Positions 5,308 through 24,238 of a stretch of 30,647 bases of DNA are shown here, in pieces; positions within the stretch are counted from its first letter, which is position 1, and the number at the start of each line of letters is the position of its first letter. The notes below the pieces were generated by a model. That model made no database searches. It had not been told where the DNA came from and saw only the letters and a list, made by a program, of their open reading frames with translations. The DNA comes from a virus, in IMG/VR virus record IMGVR_UViG_3300030380_004032, positions 1 to 30,647 of that record; one strand, given 5' to 3'. A program made the position numbers and the translations under genes.

Positions 5308-5790
5308 TTAGGCTGTTGGTGAGTCAGATGAAAGGCCGAAGAACTTTAATGCAATTACTCCACCTGCACCGGCTGTTCCAGAAACAATCAACTCAACTTC
5401 GTCGGCTGTCTCTGTCGCTGCTGTAGTTGAACCACCGGACATACCTAATACACCGTTACACGGGAAGAAACCTTTAAATCCGGTTGAATTAATTGCCTCA
5501 GAAATACCGTCAACAAAACCGTCTGTATCAGCATCTGTACCAATGTCAACCAAGTTTACAGCATTTGCTGCCGCGCTTGTTACTGTAACAGCAACACCCA
5601 TAGGGATGAAGTTTGAAGGAATTCCAATTGAAGACTCTTTATGAGATGTCCCCGTAGCAGCAACTGTTATAGAGGTGCTGTAAGTTGAAAGAACCATCTC
5701 ATTTGTAAGTCCACCAGTGGTGGAGTTTTTAATGATTGTTTTGAACCCGTTTTCGGAACGGACTGGACCGTTAAAAGTAGTATTAGCCAT
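5308..5790 (-). CDS. Virion structural protein after capsid terminator
   Basis: A 160-residue, Ala/Gly/Thr-rich, low-charge protein. The N-terminus FNGPVRSENGFKTI is typical of phage structural proteins anchored to the particle. The middle (AVTVTSAAANAVNLVDIGTD) and C-terminus (ADEVELIVSGTAGAGGVIAL) are beta-rich, with an acidic DIGTDADTDGF loop that could bind a cation. A good ribosome site (AGGAG) precedes the ATG at 5790. It is the first gene after the hairpin at 5860-5887, so its dose probably depends on readthrough or on a separate promoter. Specific role not recognised. Confidence 0.55.
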   Translation of the reverse strand: MANTTFNGPVRSENGFKTIIKNSTTGGLTNEMVLSTYSTSITVAATGTSHKESSIGIPSNFIPMGVAVTVTSAAANAVNLVDIGTDADTDGFVDGISEAINSTGFKGFFPCNGVLGMSGGSTTAATETADEVELIVSGTAGAGGVIALKFFGLSSDSPTA

Positions 5791-5859
5791 GGTTTTCTCC
5801 TGTCGTGGCTAGTGTCAACCACCCCATGCGGTTGTCAGGGATGGTTTATATTACAATAA

Positions 5860-14266: not shown

Positions 14267-17115
14267 TGCATATGTTTGATAAATTCTGCGATACCAGCCT
14301 TAACTGGGCCGCCTTTTGCAAACTCCTGTGGCTGGTCCGTGGGCCGCGTTTCGGTCAACGCCGCCCCTGTACCAATGCCCACGGTCCCCGCAAAACCGTA
14401 TTTCTTTAAAATATCTAAAGTAGCCGCATCAAAAACAACGTAATTATAATCGTCTGCTCCGGGGTCTAACCTATCGTACCGCGTACCACGGGTTGAATAC
14501 TTCGTTCCTTTTATGCCGTTATTGTTCAGTAAAATAGAAATACGCGGGTCATCTAAACTCGAACCACCATAGAAATCGGCAATGGACAACAGAACTCCCT
14601 GACCGTCAGCCCGCCCCCGCTCGACCTCCTTAATCAACTTCTTATCGCCAATCTTACGAGCGATTGCTAAAACCTTTTCACGAACAGCAGGGTGCTGATC
14701 CTCCATTGAGCGATAAAAATCAATCATCTCGGTACGCGGATCAATGTCCATAGCTACTTGCATTAACTTACCGTCAGAAGGGCCGAGACCTATAACCTCA
14801 AAACCATCTCGTTCCACACCCGTCTTCTCATCAACGTGAACTGCGTTTTTTAAACGTAAAGTTTTACCATCTTCAAAAGCATAATCTGTAAAGCCCCCAG
14901 TCAAATTTGTATTTGCATTGTCCGCGCCAATGCCATCAACTAATTCATCGAGCGCATTGGCTAAATCTTCATTGTCTTCAACAAAAAGCTTTGGTCTGCC
15001 TGTGTCAGGGTCCGTCACACGCTGTGTGTTAAACCGTCCAACAACCATGTTCAAATCGTCTTCATCTGCAAAAGGGTCTAACTCTTTGCGAAAACCTACG
15101 TTGCGTTTGTATGTTTCGCCCACCTGACGAAGATCCGAAAGATAAATACCATGACCAAACATGTTTGCTCCTTCACCTGTCTTTACATAGTGAAGATCAA
15201 ACTTATCAAAATCAGTTCCTGCCCCGTGCCAAGTCTCAACTTTACGGCGACGAGCGGCTTCATTTATTTTTGGAACCATGCCCTGAATGCCGCCTGTTGT
15301 TCTTCCGTAATCAACACCCATAGGGCCGACTTCTTTAATTACGTCCTGCATGTCATAGCCGCCTGGGGCAAAAACCCCTATAGGAGCGGTCTCAGCTCTC
15401 ATTTCGAGCTCATATAGTCGGCTCTCTATTCTCTCTAATGCAGCAGGAGAAGTAGCCTTTTGTTGCGATCTTTCCAATTCACGAATTTCCGCAAACAACT
15501 TCTCCCTTTCCTCAGAGCTTCTAGCAACCTTTTCCCCAATTATTTTAAAATAATTATTGTATGAGTCTTCAGTAATGCCTAAAGCTTTCATTACTTTTTG
15601 TTGTTTTTGTATCGCGCCTTGATATCTATTAGCCATTATTTCTTTAGCGCGAGCCAAAACTTCTTCACGCATGGCGAGATTATTGGGGTCTAATTTAGCC
15701 CCTTGGTCCATAGGACCTGGATAAACTATCGCACGAGACCGCATGTTTATGGGCATATTATTTTGCGAAATAATGTCATCACGAGCCATGTTTAAAGCTT
15801 GGTAAATTCTACCATTTTCGCTTTGGGGGGCTGCCTGCGATAAGTTGCCAATATTGTAGGTTCCTTGATCTAGGCCCGTGGTTATGTTTCGGTCAACTTC
15901 ATCTAACCGTTTTATAAACGCATCAGAAATTTTTTGATAATCAACTAAAGTAAAACCCATGCCCCCTTGAGGTAGGCCCTCTACATCTTGCAATAAATGC
16001 TGTAATTCATGGATCATGATGCTTCTAAATTGGTCAGGGTCACTCGAATTAAGCTGATCTGCTCTTATTGTAATGCGTTTATCATACGGGCTAAAATGAC
16101 CTAGTTCGCCATTTGGAGTCGTTTCAGAAATACGAAGTTCATATTTATTAATGAAATCCCCATACGCCTGCATTATAGGGTGGTCAGAGGGCATATGCTC
16201 TGACAAAGGACTGTCAAAGAATTTTCCAAAGCCAGGTTCTGTCGGAAGGCTTATGTTATTGTCTAAATAAGTAATGACATTCCCCCCATCCAAAGATTCA
16301 TAATCGAAAAAGTCGTACATGTCATGGACAACGCTGTCCATTGGAGCATCTGTTCCAAAATTAATATCGGTAAGATCTGCTTCAAATTCAGTGTAAAAAG
16401 TTACGGTTGGTTTTCCGTTTGCGTCATATGTAATTGATGGCCCTGTCCCAAAACCTGTTTGCTTTTTTGTTTCTCTGAAAATGTCGTCCGCTAAAGAGTA
16501 AACATTTTCTTTGTTTGCAAAGTCAGCCTCTTTTGCCCTGTATAAATTTTCAGCTAATTCTCTTGATTTTGTGATTTCAGGAAAAGCTCTGGCCGCCTCT
16601 TCGCCGCCCATCATTTCTGTCCTTGACGTGTCGGGTAAATCTTGATCCGGGGACCGTGGTACGGGAACTATCTGCCCGTCAGGTGTGACCGCGACAGGAG
16701 TATTTTTGTTTTTCATATATTTTATGAAGCTTGCAATGCCGTCACTTAAAAGATCTGCTCCTTTAGCGGTGGCTATCTCCCCCAAACCTAGAGCACCTCC
16801 CACGAGACGTGCATCATCCCGCATCTTTTGACGTAACTCTGTTGGGGCTTTGCCAAAAGTTTTCTCCCCTAAAACTTCAGAGCCAGCTATTTTATCTAGC
16901 CCCTGCATTTGTTGAAGCATCAAAATATTTGATGTGACTGGAGGTAGAGAAGTAGCACCTTCGCCTACTAATCCTGCAATATCAGAAAAACTTCCCACAA
17001 GGTCGGGGCCCATTCCTTGCAAAAGACCTTTAAAGGTTTCTATGCCCTCACCTGTACGGTCGTACCCTTCCGGGTATCTTCGGGACGGCACTAAAGAAAA
17101 TTTTGATTCAGCCAT
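14263..17115 (-). CDS. Polyvalent protein: zincin-like motif plus ADP-ribosyltransferase-like domain
   Basis: A 950-residue multidomain protein between TerL and the portal. Residues 1-140 are helical. A region at about 300-380 contains a metallopeptidase signature, SIMIHELQHLLQDVEG, with HELQH at 369-373. A coiled coil follows at about 530-575. From about 627 the sequence matches the ADP-ribosyltransferase-like domain of phage polyvalent proteins: TWHGAG (628-633), FDKFD, GEGANMFGHGIYLS (647-660), VGETYK, an inserted segment (about 685-785), and then IKGTKY with NYVVFDAATLDIL near 890-903. The C-terminus ends GIAEFIKHM, echoing GIASFIKYM at 126-134. Such proteins are thought to be injected with phage DNA and to act on host targets. 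It overlaps TerL by 8 bp. Both enzymatic activities are inferred from motifs. Confidence 0.75.
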   Translation of the reverse strand: MAESKFSLVPSRRYPEGYDRTGEGIETFKGLLQGMGPDLVGSFSDIAGLVGEGATSLPPVTSNILMLQQMQGLDKIAGSEVLGEKTFGKAPTELRQKMRDDARLVGGALGLGEIATAKGADLLSDGIASFIKYMKNKNTPVAVTPDGQIVPVPRSPDQDLPDTSRTEMMGGEEAARAFPEITKSRELAENLYRAKEADFANKENVYSLADDIFRETKKQTGFGTGPSITYDANGKPTVTFYTEFEADLTDINFGTDAPMDSVVHDMYDFFDYESLDGGNVITYLDNNISLPTEPGFGKFFDSPLSEHMPSDHPIMQAYGDFINKYELRISETTPNGELGHFSPYDKRITIRADQLNSSDPDQFRSIMIHELQHLLQDVEGLPQGGMGFTLVDYQKISDAFIKRLDEVDRNITTGLDQGTYNIGNLSQAAPQSENGRIYQALNMARDDIISQNNMPINMRSRAIVYPGPMDQGAKLDPNNLAMREEVLARAKEIMANRYQGAIQKQQKVMKALGITEDSYNNYFKIIGEKVARSSEEREKLFAEIRELERSQQKATSPAALERIESRLYELEMRAETAPIGVFAPGGYDMQDVIKEVGPMGVDYGRTTGGIQGMVPKINEAARRRKVETWHGAGTDFDKFDLHYVKTGEGANMFGHGIYLSDLRQVGETYKRNVGFRKELDPFADEDDLNMVVGRFNTQRVTDPDTGRPKLFVEDNEDLANALDELVDGIGADNANTNLTGGFTDYAFEDGKTLRLKNAVHVDEKTGVERDGFEVIGLGPSDGKLMQVAMDIDPRTEMIDFYRSMEDQHPAVREKVLAIARKIGDKKLIKEVERGRADGQGVLLSIADFYGGSSLDDPRISILLNNNGIKGTKYSTRGTRYDRLDPGADDYNYVVFDAATLDILKKYGFAGTVGIGTGAALTETRPTDQPQEFAKGGPVKAGIAEFIKHMQ

Positions 17116-18565
17116 AATATGCGCGGACCTGAGTATGCTTATCTTCGTCTATGTCCCAATCGTCCGTGGGCAGCGATACAAAGTTACCTTGCCGATAACG
17201 CATCAACGCTTGGGTCATGCTGTCAACAAGGTCATCATACTCCCCATTTGGAAACGCTGCAACTTCTTCAATTAGTTCATCCGCAAAGGTCTCATCAGGA
17301 GCAAAGACCATGCCTGCCTCAAACAAAGGAGAGACCGCATGTACTCTTGAAACTTTGTCATTACCCCGTGATGGAGAGAAGTTAACAACAGGAATGCCCA
17401 TATTGCGTAATTCGTGGGTTAAAGGGGTCCCTGACGCTTTTGCCTCAATAATGACTGTTTCTGGCTCCCAAAAGTTGTATTGATCCCAAGCTACCTGTTT
17501 TAACTCCGGAAAATCCCAACGCCCCTTCTTACTGTCCAACAATATCAACCCTCTAGGGCCCCCAATTTCTTCTGGCCTGAATACCCCCCAAGTAGTGATT
17601 GCAGAGTAATCTGCCGTCTCCTTCTTTGAAAACGCAGTATCATAACTTTGTATGACGTATTCAAGATTAGGGACATCATCGTTTTCCCACCTCTGCCACC
17701 ACTCACGCGGGATTATGGCATTTTCTTCGCCCGTGGGCCGTTGTTGGTACTGTGCGTTCCATTTTGAAGGCGGGATGGACGCTTTAACCTTCTCTAAATC
17801 ATCTTTTGACCAGAACTCAGGCCATGTTGGGTCCCCGTCCCCCAACAAAGCAGGAAGTTCAACTATCTCCCACTGGTCCGCTTTAGGGTCTTTATTCATC
17901 TGTCGTATGAGTTGCCCAGTCAAATCCTTCTGAGACCACCGTGTCATAACCAAAATGATTGAACCCCCTGGCTGTAGTCTCTGTCGGGGGCCCCCAGTGT
18001 ACCAATCCCAAGCGTCATCAAACCCGTTATTTGACATGGCCGTCTGTTCAGAGTGAGGATCGTCAATGATAACAAGATCTCCCCCTCGACCAGCTAAGTT
18101 TGAGCCAACGCCGACAGCATAATATGCCCCACCCCTGGCGGTATCCCAACGACCAGAGGCTTTACTGTCGGCTGAAAGTTTGGCTTCAGGGAATATTTCT
18201 GTGTAATCTTCCCTGTCCAAAAGGTTTTTGACCTTACGGCCAAAGCCTACGGCAAGCTCTGTGGTGTGCGTCGCCTGTATTATTTTCATATTTGGATTGC
18301 GGCCTATAAACCATGCAGGCAGAAAGTTTGACGCGAACTCCGACTTGGTGTGTCGCGGTGCCATGTTGATAATAAGCCTCTTGAGGGACCCATCAGCTAC
18401 CCTTTGGAACTTCTCTGCAATGATTTTGTGGTGCTCGCCTGCTATAAACTCAGGCCACATTGCGCGGACAAAGGTAAGAAAGTCATTACGACAGGAATCT
18501 ATCCTGTCTAGTTGAGCTAATCTTAACTGAAGTTTGACCGCTCTATCTCTTGCGTCTTCACTCAT
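17108..18565 (-). CDS. terL: Terminase large subunit
   Basis: A 485-residue packaging ATPase-nuclease. The ATPase half has an atypical Walker A, APRHTKS (69-75), a coupling region near QATHTTELAVGFGRK, Walker B LVIIDDP (164-170) and motif III around LVMTRWSQKDLTG. The nuclease half has SYDTAFSKK (D309), VIIEAKASGTPL (E374) and YDDLVDSMTQAL (D444/D445), the acidic RNase H-like triad. Length and motifs are complete. It binds the portal and cuts and pumps DNA. It is the second gene of the late operon, ATGA-coupled to the gene before it. The likely small subunit is 5 kb away, at 23675-24238. Confidence 0.92.
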   Translation of the reverse strand: MSEDARDRAVKLQLRLAQLDRIDSCRNDFLTFVRAMWPEFIAGEHHKIIAEKFQRVADGSLKRLIINMAPRHTKSEFASNFLPAWFIGRNPNMKIIQATHTTELAVGFGRKVKNLLDREDYTEIFPEAKLSADSKASGRWDTARGGAYYAVGVGSNLAGRGGDLVIIDDPHSEQTAMSNNGFDDAWDWYTGGPRQRLQPGGSIILVMTRWSQKDLTGQLIRQMNKDPKADQWEIVELPALLGDGDPTWPEFWSKDDLEKVKASIPPSKWNAQYQQRPTGEENAIIPREWWQRWENDDVPNLEYVIQSYDTAFSKKETADYSAITTWGVFRPEEIGGPRGLILLDSKKGRWDFPELKQVAWDQYNFWEPETVIIEAKASGTPLTHELRNMGIPVVNFSPSRGNDKVSRVHAVSPLFEAGMVFAPDETFADELIEEVAAFPNGEYDDLVDSMTQALMRYRQGNFVSLPTDDWDIDEDKHTQVRAYYG

Positions 18566-18771
18566 GCCTTTTCTTTCGTCTCAACTTTTTCATTTAATAT
18601 ACATTTTCTTTGAAAAAAGATAACTGGTGAAAAATTTTGTTCTACGTTCAACGCCATTTGTTCTAATCTTTGACCACACTGCTCTAGAGACGTGTAGGGG
18701 CCCCAATCATCTCGTATATTAAAGCACTGTGGGTCTTGTCCTATACACGCTATCAATAAAACAATAAACAT
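18562..18771 (-). CDS. Small exported two-cysteine protein, first late gene
   Basis: A 69-residue protein with a strong ribosome site (AAAGGAGG) before the ATG. The hydrophobic start FIVLLIACIG includes C9. Then come C16, YTSLEQCGQRLEQMA with C32, and RKCILN with C57. It shares hydrophobic N-terminus, S-L-x2-C and a second Cys 23-25 residues on with the proteins at 9908-10117 and 10505-10726. It is probably exported; 'IACIGQDPQC' does not fit a clean lipobox. First gene of the TerL operon. Function unknown. Confidence 0.55.
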   Translation of the reverse strand: MFIVLLIACIGQDPQCFNIRDDWGPYTSLEQCGQRLEQMALNVEQNFSPVIFFQRKCILNEKVETKEKA

Positions 18772-18800
18772 CTTCGCCTCCTTTACAGGGTTTTACCCTC

Positions 18801-18833
18801 ATTATATGCGATATTTTATATAATGATATCATT
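18801..18833 (-). promoter_or_regulatory. Candidate late promoter with operator palindrome
   Basis: On the minus strand a perfect TATAAT (18806-18801) lies 29 bp before the first late ATG. About 16 bp upstream is a perfect 12-bp palindrome, AATGATATCATT (18822-18833), where the -35 region should be. No good -35 hexamer is seen at 17 bp, which is consistent with an activator-dependent late promoter. Inference from sequence only. Confidence 0.5.
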
Positions 18834-19140
18834 TTTTTACCTATTGTTTGTGAAAAACATGGACTTTGTCGTCGCCGACGCTGCCACCCGCCGTTTTTCG
18901 CGTCGGTTTTTTGACGGTCATTGTTTTTATTGAGAAAAATTAAGTCTAAATGGGCCCCGCAACGTTTGCGCTGCGCGACGGTTTTTTATGCGCGGGCCGT
19001 GATCAGGTGCAGCTGGGCCGCGTAACAACGTCACTAAATATCGAATCACGGGACACGGACCACGGCTCATATGTTTTAAAGCGGGCCAGTCGGTCGAGCT
19101 GGGCAAGTTTTATCTGAATATACCGGACAAGTGATCCATA

Positions 19141-19208
19141 GGCTTATAACTTTGAATCTTAGCCCGATCAGCGTGTAAACATACGACGATCGATCACGAG
19201 CTGGACGA
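19141..19208. repeat. Direct repeat copy 1 (68 bp, 37-bp identical core)
   Basis: The core 19166-19202 is identical to 19447-19483, and the flanking 25 bp (19141-19165) match copy 2 at about two thirds of positions. The core holds GCGTGTAAACATACGAC followed by the self-complementary GATCGATC. Copies lie in the same orientation, 281 bp apart. Confidence 0.9.
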
Positions 19209-19421
19209 CAATTGACTATTTAAGGTTGTATAAACATAAAACTGGTTAAAAACGGACATTTTGAGTCCGGTGTTTGTTTTAATTGAATAAAAGCCCGTCC
19301 AGGACGAGCTCCCTGGTGCACGTTTTAGGCGATTAAGTACAACTGGCGGGAAAAATCGACGCGCTGCGCCTCGAATCTTTTGTGCAGCTTGATTGATTTT
19401 AAGCAAAAACCCGAAAAAACT

Positions 19422-19489
19422 GGCTTAAAACTGGGATTTTCAGGCTGATCAGCGTGTAAACATACGACGATCGATCACGAGCTCGACGA
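19422..19489. repeat. Direct repeat copy 2 (68 bp, 37-bp identical core)
   Basis: The core 19447-19483 is identical to copy 1; one mismatch is followed by five more matching bases. The preceding flank (19422-19446) is diverged but alignable, so the core has been conserved relative to its surroundings, as expected for a binding site. Confidence 0.9.
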
Positions 19490-19526
19490 GAATCGCGTTA
19501 AAATGGGCCTATTTTTAACAAAAGAC

Positions 19527-19554
19527 AAAAAAAGGCCCGCCATATAGGCGGGCC
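19527..19554 (-). terminator. Intrinsic terminator after the Cys-rich gene
   Basis: A perfect 8-bp stem GGCCCGCC/GGCGGGCC (19534-19541 with 19547-19554), 5-nt loop, followed on the minus strand by seven T (19533-19527). It lies 20 bp after the stop codon at 19575. Confidence 0.93.
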
Positions 19555-19574
19555 GGAGTCGTTAATTGTGGGGC

Positions 19575-23346: not shown

Positions 23347-23772
23347 TTATATGTCAAATGTCAAGTCTAAAAGTTCTTGCCAGTTAACCGGATTAGAAAA
23401 TTTAAACTGAGGTTTAAGGAGCAAGCCTCTGTCCAGCAGCTCAATTGCTTGCTCGCCAGCATATACAAAAATGTCTGCGTCTTTTGTATGCACAAAAATG
23501 TATGTTGGAGCGTGTTTGTGTTGGGTCATCCAAGAAACTTGGTGAGGGGACAATCGAACAGCCGAACCTTTTGTGGTTTTTAACTCTACAAAATAAAATT
23601 TTCCGCGTTCAGAACAAACAACAAGATCTGGTACACCAAGGGAAGCCCAGCTTTCTAAACGGGTAAAGCGAAGACTAGGCCGACACTTCTTCTGGTTCTT
23701 CTTCAGTTTCTGATAAAAGCTCGACTCTAGATTTTTTTTCTTCAGGGGTGATGTTGATAATATCTTTTCCAT
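23347..23772 (-). CDS. VRR-NUC domain nuclease
   Basis: A 141-residue stand-alone VRR-NUC (PD-(D/E)XK superfamily) protein. Visible: ESSFYQKLKK helix (16-25), RFTRLESWASLGVPDLVVC with GVPD at 46-49 (D49), FYFVELKTTKGS with E63-x-K65, and LSPHQVSWM with Q78, then TYIFVHTKDADIFVY strands. The D, ExK and Q set is the complete active site. Phage copies are thought to process branched or damaged DNA during recombination or packaging; the substrate here is unknown. The gene overlaps the TerS-like gene by 98 bp in another frame, and the conserved N-terminal helix lies inside that overlap. Confidence 0.85.
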   Translation of the reverse strand: MEKILSTSPLKKKNLESSFYQKLKKNQKKCRPSLRFTRLESWASLGVPDLVVCSERGKFYFVELKTTKGSAVRLSPHQVSWMTQHKHAPTYIFVHTKDADIFVYAGEQAIELLDRGLLLKPQFKFSNPVNWQELLDLTFDI

Positions 23773-24238
23773 GCTGGTCTCGCAGCTCCTGCAAAGCTTT
23801 TTCTACTTCTTCTCTGCTCATGCTGTCGATAGACCCATGACGGATTTCAGATTTATTAATATAGATATTCCCTTGGGCCTGCCCTCTGCGGTATTCTGCT
23901 TGCACGGCTGCAGAGTAAGCCCCATTTTCAATAGCCAGGTCACGGATGCGTTGCATATCACGAACATGTCGAGCAAAAGTGATGCCGTACTTTTCGTCTA
24001 ATTCTGCTCTAAAAGCTTTTATAGCTGCTACTACATTTGGGTGCATAGTCGGGTTGGTCAGCTCTGAGGCTTTCACATGAGCCGATCTTTCAGGATATCC
24101 CGCATTAATAGCGGCTTGACGTTTTGTAATCATGCCGTCGTTTGCTACAAATTCTTTTACAAACTTTTCTTGTTTTGGGGTCAAAGGGGTTTCCAGTGTC
24201 TTACGCGGTCTGCCCCTAGATTTCTTTACTACCTGCAT
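23675..24238 (-). CDS. Terminase small subunit-like protein
   Basis: A 187-residue protein. An AT-hook-like KKSRGRPRKT (5-14) precedes LTPKQEKFVKEFVANDGMIT, with KRQAAINAGYPERSAHVKAS (39-58), a helix-turn-helix arrangement typical of terminase small subunits ('LT.kQ..Fv.ey......t.AA..AGys'). The middle is helical (AFRAELDEKYGITFARHVRD), with EYRRGQAQGNIYINKSEIRH (115-134), as in phage TerS of the Terminase_2 type. The C-terminus is acidic and probably disordered, and it is this part that overlaps the VRR-NUC gene. It should recognise the packaging site and load TerL. AAGAGGG is the ribosome site. Confidence 0.72.
   Translation of the reverse strand: MQVVKKSRGRPRKTLETPLTPKQEKFVKEFVANDGMITKRQAAINAGYPERSAHVKASELTNPTMHPNVVAAIKAFRAELDEKYGITFARHVRDMQRIRDLAIENGAYSAAVQAEYRRGQAQGNIYINKSEIRHGSIDSMSREEVEKALQELRDQHGKDIINITPEEKKSRVELLSETEEEPEEVSA

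Follow-up and report, generated by a model that had tools for sequence, protein, structure and literature searches.

Predicted genome ends and a clade-specific 72-nt repeat in non-coding DNA at the early/late gene boundary of an uncultured marine phage

The non-coding region at the boundary between early and late genes in a 30,647-nt viral DNA stretch (the whole stretch analyzed from IMG/VR record IMGVR_UViG_3300030380_004032, here called the window) very probably holds the ends of the phage genome. For the broader statement, that this region is the concatemer junction and that the two 72-nt repeats found in it are clade-specific, end-flanking sites serving packaging, we see about even chances. 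Judged from its sequence, the phage is a distant relative of pelagiphages HTVC027P and HTVC023P, which are its nearest annotated relatives by TerL (55–61% identity) and have the TerS gene located a few kb upstream of that of TerL. The features of the window are listed in Table 1, where the late strand is the minus strand.

The region comprises 803 bp, limited by the stop of the DUF7227 gene and the start of a short ORF preceding TerL, all three genes being on the minus strand, with the early-gene terminator on one side and, on the other, a sigma-70-like promoter that precedes TerL. A previous sequence-only reading had placed non-coding DNA at 18781–19526; the region is indeed non-coding, but extends slightly further. 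The direct repeat with a perfectly kept 37-bp core, noticed in the same reading, is real: its two copies are 72 nt long, spaced by 281 bp and 86% identical, the longest identical block being the 37-nt core, and the two matches in the window compare to none in 100 dinucleotide-preserving shuffles. The copies agree at about 70% of the positions flanking the core, in line with the two-thirds identity earlier estimated for the flanks. On the plus strand, the core reads AAACATAC / GTAAACATACGACG. It contains GATCGATC, as had been pointed out, but this string is not conserved, as clade copies read GTTGGTGATC, AGCGATGATC, or AGCAACGATC. A search for further core copies found none in the window and none in three related records, and the possibility of a dispersed operator was rejected because the latter lack such copies. 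BLAST of the non-coding region against annotated phages yielded no matches.

Table 1. Features of the window around the early/late boundary and their basis
Feature	Position	Strand	Basis
Non-coding region, early/late gene boundary	18772..19574	.	ORF list and Pfam; same place in relatives
72-nt element, proximal copy (exact core 19166-19202)	19141..19212	-	repeat search, shuffles; 99–104 bp to predicted cut in 9 genomes
72-nt element, distal copy (exact core 19447-19483)	19422..19493	-	repeat search, shuffles; 48–50 nt to early terminator
Predicted direct terminal repeat, 244 bp	18861..19104	-	homology: terminal repeats of G009, G023; end sites in L259, L031, G028
Predicted left cut ATAAAACTT^GCCCAGC (late strand), 28 nt before box	19104..19105	-	homology
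Predicted right cut GTCC^ATGTTTTTCAC (late strand; also written GTCC^ATGTTTTTC)	18860..18861	-	homology
AAACATAT box, kept in nearly all relatives	19069..19076	-	motif search
Predicted sigma-70-like late promoter TTCACA-N17-TGATAT	18826..18854	-	sequence, conserved across relatives
Early-operon intrinsic terminator	19534..19554	-	terminator scan
Last early gene, DUF7227 protein, 240 aa	19575..20297	-	Pfam
ORF, 69 aa, preceding TerL	18562..18771	-	ORF list; relatives
Terminase large subunit (TerL)	17108..18565	-	Pfam Terminase_6C; relatives annotated TerL
Terminase small subunit (TerS), candidate binder	23675..24238	-	Pfam Terminase_2

Genome ends were recognized in the relatives. Two near-complete records originating from different metagenomes, G009 (57,546 bp) and G023 (58,588 bp), have exact direct terminal repeats of 301 and 520 bp, respectively; the lengths differ because the spacers differ, and neither is a common assembler word size. 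On the left, these repeats start 28 and 29 nt ahead of a conserved AAACNTAC box; on the right, their boundaries agree within 1 nt (GGGCC^ATG or GGGC^CATG, in the context GGGC^CATGTTT). An overlap produced by strain variation would be expected to carry conserved flank past the right boundary, and none is seen. Moreover, the first base of the L259 contig lies 29 nt ahead of its box; G028 has a run of ten N, and the scaffold piece following it begins exactly 29 nt ahead of the box; and L031 opens with GTGCTCTTCCGA, 12 nt of Illumina adapter, behind which the insert starts 28 nt ahead of the box if one mismatch is tolerated in the adapter (L031 is the sole convincing match among all locus ends checked for adapters). 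Taken together, the terminal repeats of G009 and G023 and these three starts represent physical DNA ends, and the identical terminal repeats and the boundaries shared by independent genomes are those of fixed ends. Throughout the family the left junction aligns as TTAAWCWT^GCC; both it and the box can be recognized in almost all relatives whose upstream sequence is long enough. The right junction, if reversed (AAAAACAT^GGCC), resembles the left one, and the two cut sites thus appear to be one motif in opposite orientations.

Other contig ends were treated with caution. Among contigs ending at most 3.9 kb upstream of TerL (L013–L092), 18 of 42 end within the first 500 bp, compared to 1 of 25 on the downstream side. 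Hence, breaks are enriched upstream of TerL, but, apart from the junction starts, those in the region are scattered; therefore, they were not accepted as proof of ends, and only starts exactly at the junction were counted. The terminal overlaps of G008 (77 bp) and G012 (127 bp) were left out, as both lengths are common assembler word sizes. Terminal repeats are seen neither in the contigs of the window's own clade (G001, G004, and the window itself) nor in the HTVC027P record. The main text of PMC9599517 mentions neither terminal repeats nor non-coding regions, and no account of the genome ends or of this region was found in the literature on the nearest isolates.

Transferred to the window by homology, the two cuts delimit a terminal repeat of 244 bp (244–250 bp in clade members), which stays a prediction, since no clade contig shows a terminal overlap of its own. 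The mature DNA would be linear, with this segment as the direct terminal repeat. In concatemers, the packaging enzyme would cut two similar, oppositely oriented sites, on the late strand ATAAAACTT^GCCC at the left and GTCC^ATGTTTTTCAC at the right, and the segment between the cuts would be duplicated, yielding the terminal repeat. The non-coding region would then be the concatemer junction, where copied DNA is cut into single genomes for packaging. The 72-nt repeats are situated outside the predicted terminal repeat, between the early terminator and the left cut, at distances of 37 and 318 bp from the cut.

The core was matched in five IMG/VR contigs; in all of them the region is located as in the window and holds two copies of the element, one of them sometimes mutated. 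Further clade members and relatives were gathered by TerL and DUF7227 searches, resulting in a comparison of about 80 relatives and in an element alignment of 16 distinct copies. L015 has a single copy, and L016, two copies 175 bp apart. The element is confined to the window's clade, since it is absent from L018 and L019 despite 94% and 91% TerL identity, respectively. In nine clade members, 99–104 bp separate the AGCTC motif in the proximal copy from the predicted cut, and this spacing is constant, even though either of two unrelated sequences fills the 49–54 nt adjoining the cut. The distal copy is found at a constant distance of 48–50 nt from the early terminator, and the single copy in L015 retains both distances, to the cut and to the terminator.

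Distal orthologues are on average 93% identical, and proximal ones, 81%. As paralogues are hardly closer within genomes (mean about 0.85) than between genomes (0.83), gene conversion is unnecessary, and selection is favoured. Selection on the core, suggested in the sequence-only reading, is supported for the distal copy, but the proximal core varies in some relatives. AAACAT is also found five times in the non-coding region, where 0.97 occurrences are expected (Poisson p 0.003); the right cut and the box each hold one of them. This excess would favour the packaging reading, but is only suggestive, as the motif is short and was picked after looking.

A contribution of the 72-nt repeats to end formation or packaging has, in our estimate from these comparisons, at best even and possibly slightly lower odds. 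Most likely, the repeats would be binding sites for the small terminase, or for a partner, helping to recruit the cutting and packaging machinery; the protein bound would most likely be TerS, encoded elsewhere in the window. TerL directly follows the region, a TerS gene is present, and the proximal element lies close to the homology-predicted cut and keeps its distance through replacement of the intervening sequence. On the other hand, L015 makes do with a single copy, and the element is missing in L018–L092, among them genomes with the same junction motifs, including relatives with the same ends and 62–64% identical TerS. Given its position outside the terminal repeat and its lack in relatives whose ends are the same, it is not a universal packaging signal, these relatives package without it, and therefore it is not classed as a pac site. 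Of the earlier proposals, that of TerS-binding or pac sites is the one to have gained support, from the coincidence of the region with genome ends in relatives and from the fixed distance of the near repeat to the predicted cut.

A possible but rather doubtful alternative accepts the genome ends and assigns the repeats to a clade-specific regulatory or replication element (an origin or transcriptional control), unrelated to packaging. It agrees with the restriction to one clade, with the absence from same-end relatives, with the constant distance between the distal copy and the early terminator, and with the partial dyad symmetry of the core (GATC-AGCGT...ACG-AC-GATC), but the fixed proximal spacing across replaced sequence speaks against it. 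An origin formed by iterons, as had been suggested together with a check of cumulative GC skew, gains no support from this check: the skew is monotonic, with no turning point at the region, and uninformative. The element has just two copies, the neighbouring genes are those of DUF7227 and TerL, and no initiator gene adjoining the repeats was identified.

That the repeats have no function, being a small insertion of palindromic type or a duplication remnant, is in our view improbable. One or two copies in a single clade, diverged flanks, and an imperfect terminal inverted repeat (GCGATTCTC...GAGAATCGC; the distal copies of L004 and L002 have it in perfect form) would fit this reading. However, the distal copies are better kept between genomes than the proximal copies of the same genomes, the distances to the terminator and to the predicted cut are constant, and no copies occur elsewhere in the three related records.

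Paired phage-specific promoters of the late operon, proposed earlier given the position upstream of late genes, the common orientation, and the kept core, are very unlikely, as in relatives a conserved sigma-70-like TTCACA-N17-TGATAT is much nearer to the late genes, the promoter scan found none in the repeats and no promoter-like hexamers are seen there (non-sigma-70 types of phage promoters are outside the reach of the scan), HTVC027P has no RNA polymerase of its own (PMC12753301), and most relatives lack the element. A structured RNA was rejected after folding, consensus folding on both strands, and comparison with Rfam: the z-scores of the window copies range from –0.8 to 0.4, one compensatory pair is found per strand, and no Rfam match reaches the threshold. 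In another part of the window, 5788–5840 on the minus strand, the Mu-gpT-DE RNA of Rfam is matched with 70.4 bits within the structural gene block.

In the relatives, the early terminator is followed on the late strand by a short junction, then by a hypervariable, GC-rich stretch that in many cases is internally repetitive, by a conserved block (CCATGTTTYTSNCAAAYAWT, containing TTSACA-N17-TGATAT), and by TerL. Nearly every spacer with enough sequence has one AAACNTAC box. In the spacers of 29 dissimilar relatives, GATCAC is observed 34 times compared to 2.5 expected, and CAGCTG, 24 times compared to 1.4 expected; the former word, as GTGATC, is contained in the window repeat. The enrichment concerns both GTGATC/CCGTGATCCG and CAGCTG, the latter being nearly absent elsewhere in most of these genomes. 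Many 6-bp palindromes are strongly avoided by the genomes G001, G004, G006, G009, G012, and G013, in their coding DNA; for example, GCATGC is found 0 times in G001 with 41.7 expected. Loading of the region with palindromes was also considered and dropped, because the region looks like other intergenic DNA.

Directly behind the late promoter, 36 of 80 relatives have an exact bacterial parS, TGTTTCACGTGAAACA, about 100–146 nt upstream of TerL in L030–L092 (e.g., G006:35528-35541 and G009:57193-57206). It occurs once per genome in five near-complete records, and the promoter tail with parS is matched in 70 contigs; in L259, TGTTCCACGTGGAACA stands in its place. No ParB gene was found in eight phage genome records, and therefore host ParB is the likely binder of parS. 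In the window, an almost invariant AT-rich block of the clade, ATGATATCATTATATAAAATATCGCATATAATG, replaces parS at 18800–18850 and contains a perfect TATAAT and the palindrome ATGATATCAT. One may speculate, although we regard it as a long shot, about a lineage with conserved, oppositely oriented cut sites around a freely scrambling interior of the terminal repeat, where the single parS beside the late promoter of sister clades would load host ParB at the genome end, controlling late transcription or genome handling, and where the window's clade would have replaced parS by a conserved operator of its own and the 72-nt elements.

The predicted arrangement has parallels in known systems. In T7, short repeats forming an array of 7-nt units lie beside the terminal repeats, whereas here the flanking element is 72 nt long and has one or two copies. 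The R sites of lambda cosB and the T3 pacB site are terminase recognition sites next to a cut. Similarly, the element described here is within about 100 bp of the predicted terminase cut, with fixed spacing and an adjoining TerL gene; unlike them, it is a putative site restricted to one clade, with the TerS gene about 5 kb away, and, unlike in lambda, the ends have direct repeats rather than cohesive ends. The genomes of T7, T3, P-SSP7, and, by prediction, the window family are linear and end in direct repeats that measure a few hundred bp and arise by duplication at a concatemer junction; compared to T7-like phages, the interior of the repeat is hypervariable here, the ends have a different conserved motif, and HTVC027P encodes no RNA polymerase. 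The gap upstream of TerL in HTVC027P is short, 206 bp. For P-SSP7, direct terminal repeats are named in the title of PLoS ONE 2012 e36710 (cited in PMC10504331).

These results provide a sequence-level definition of genome ends for a group of uncultured marine phages, with cut sites predictable from sequence alone, and make terminase recognition testable in this group. They also indicate that public assemblies can betray a packaging strategy through terminal overlaps, gaps, and adapter remnants. Finally, parS beside the genome end in sister clades raises a new question, that of the use of host ParB by phages.
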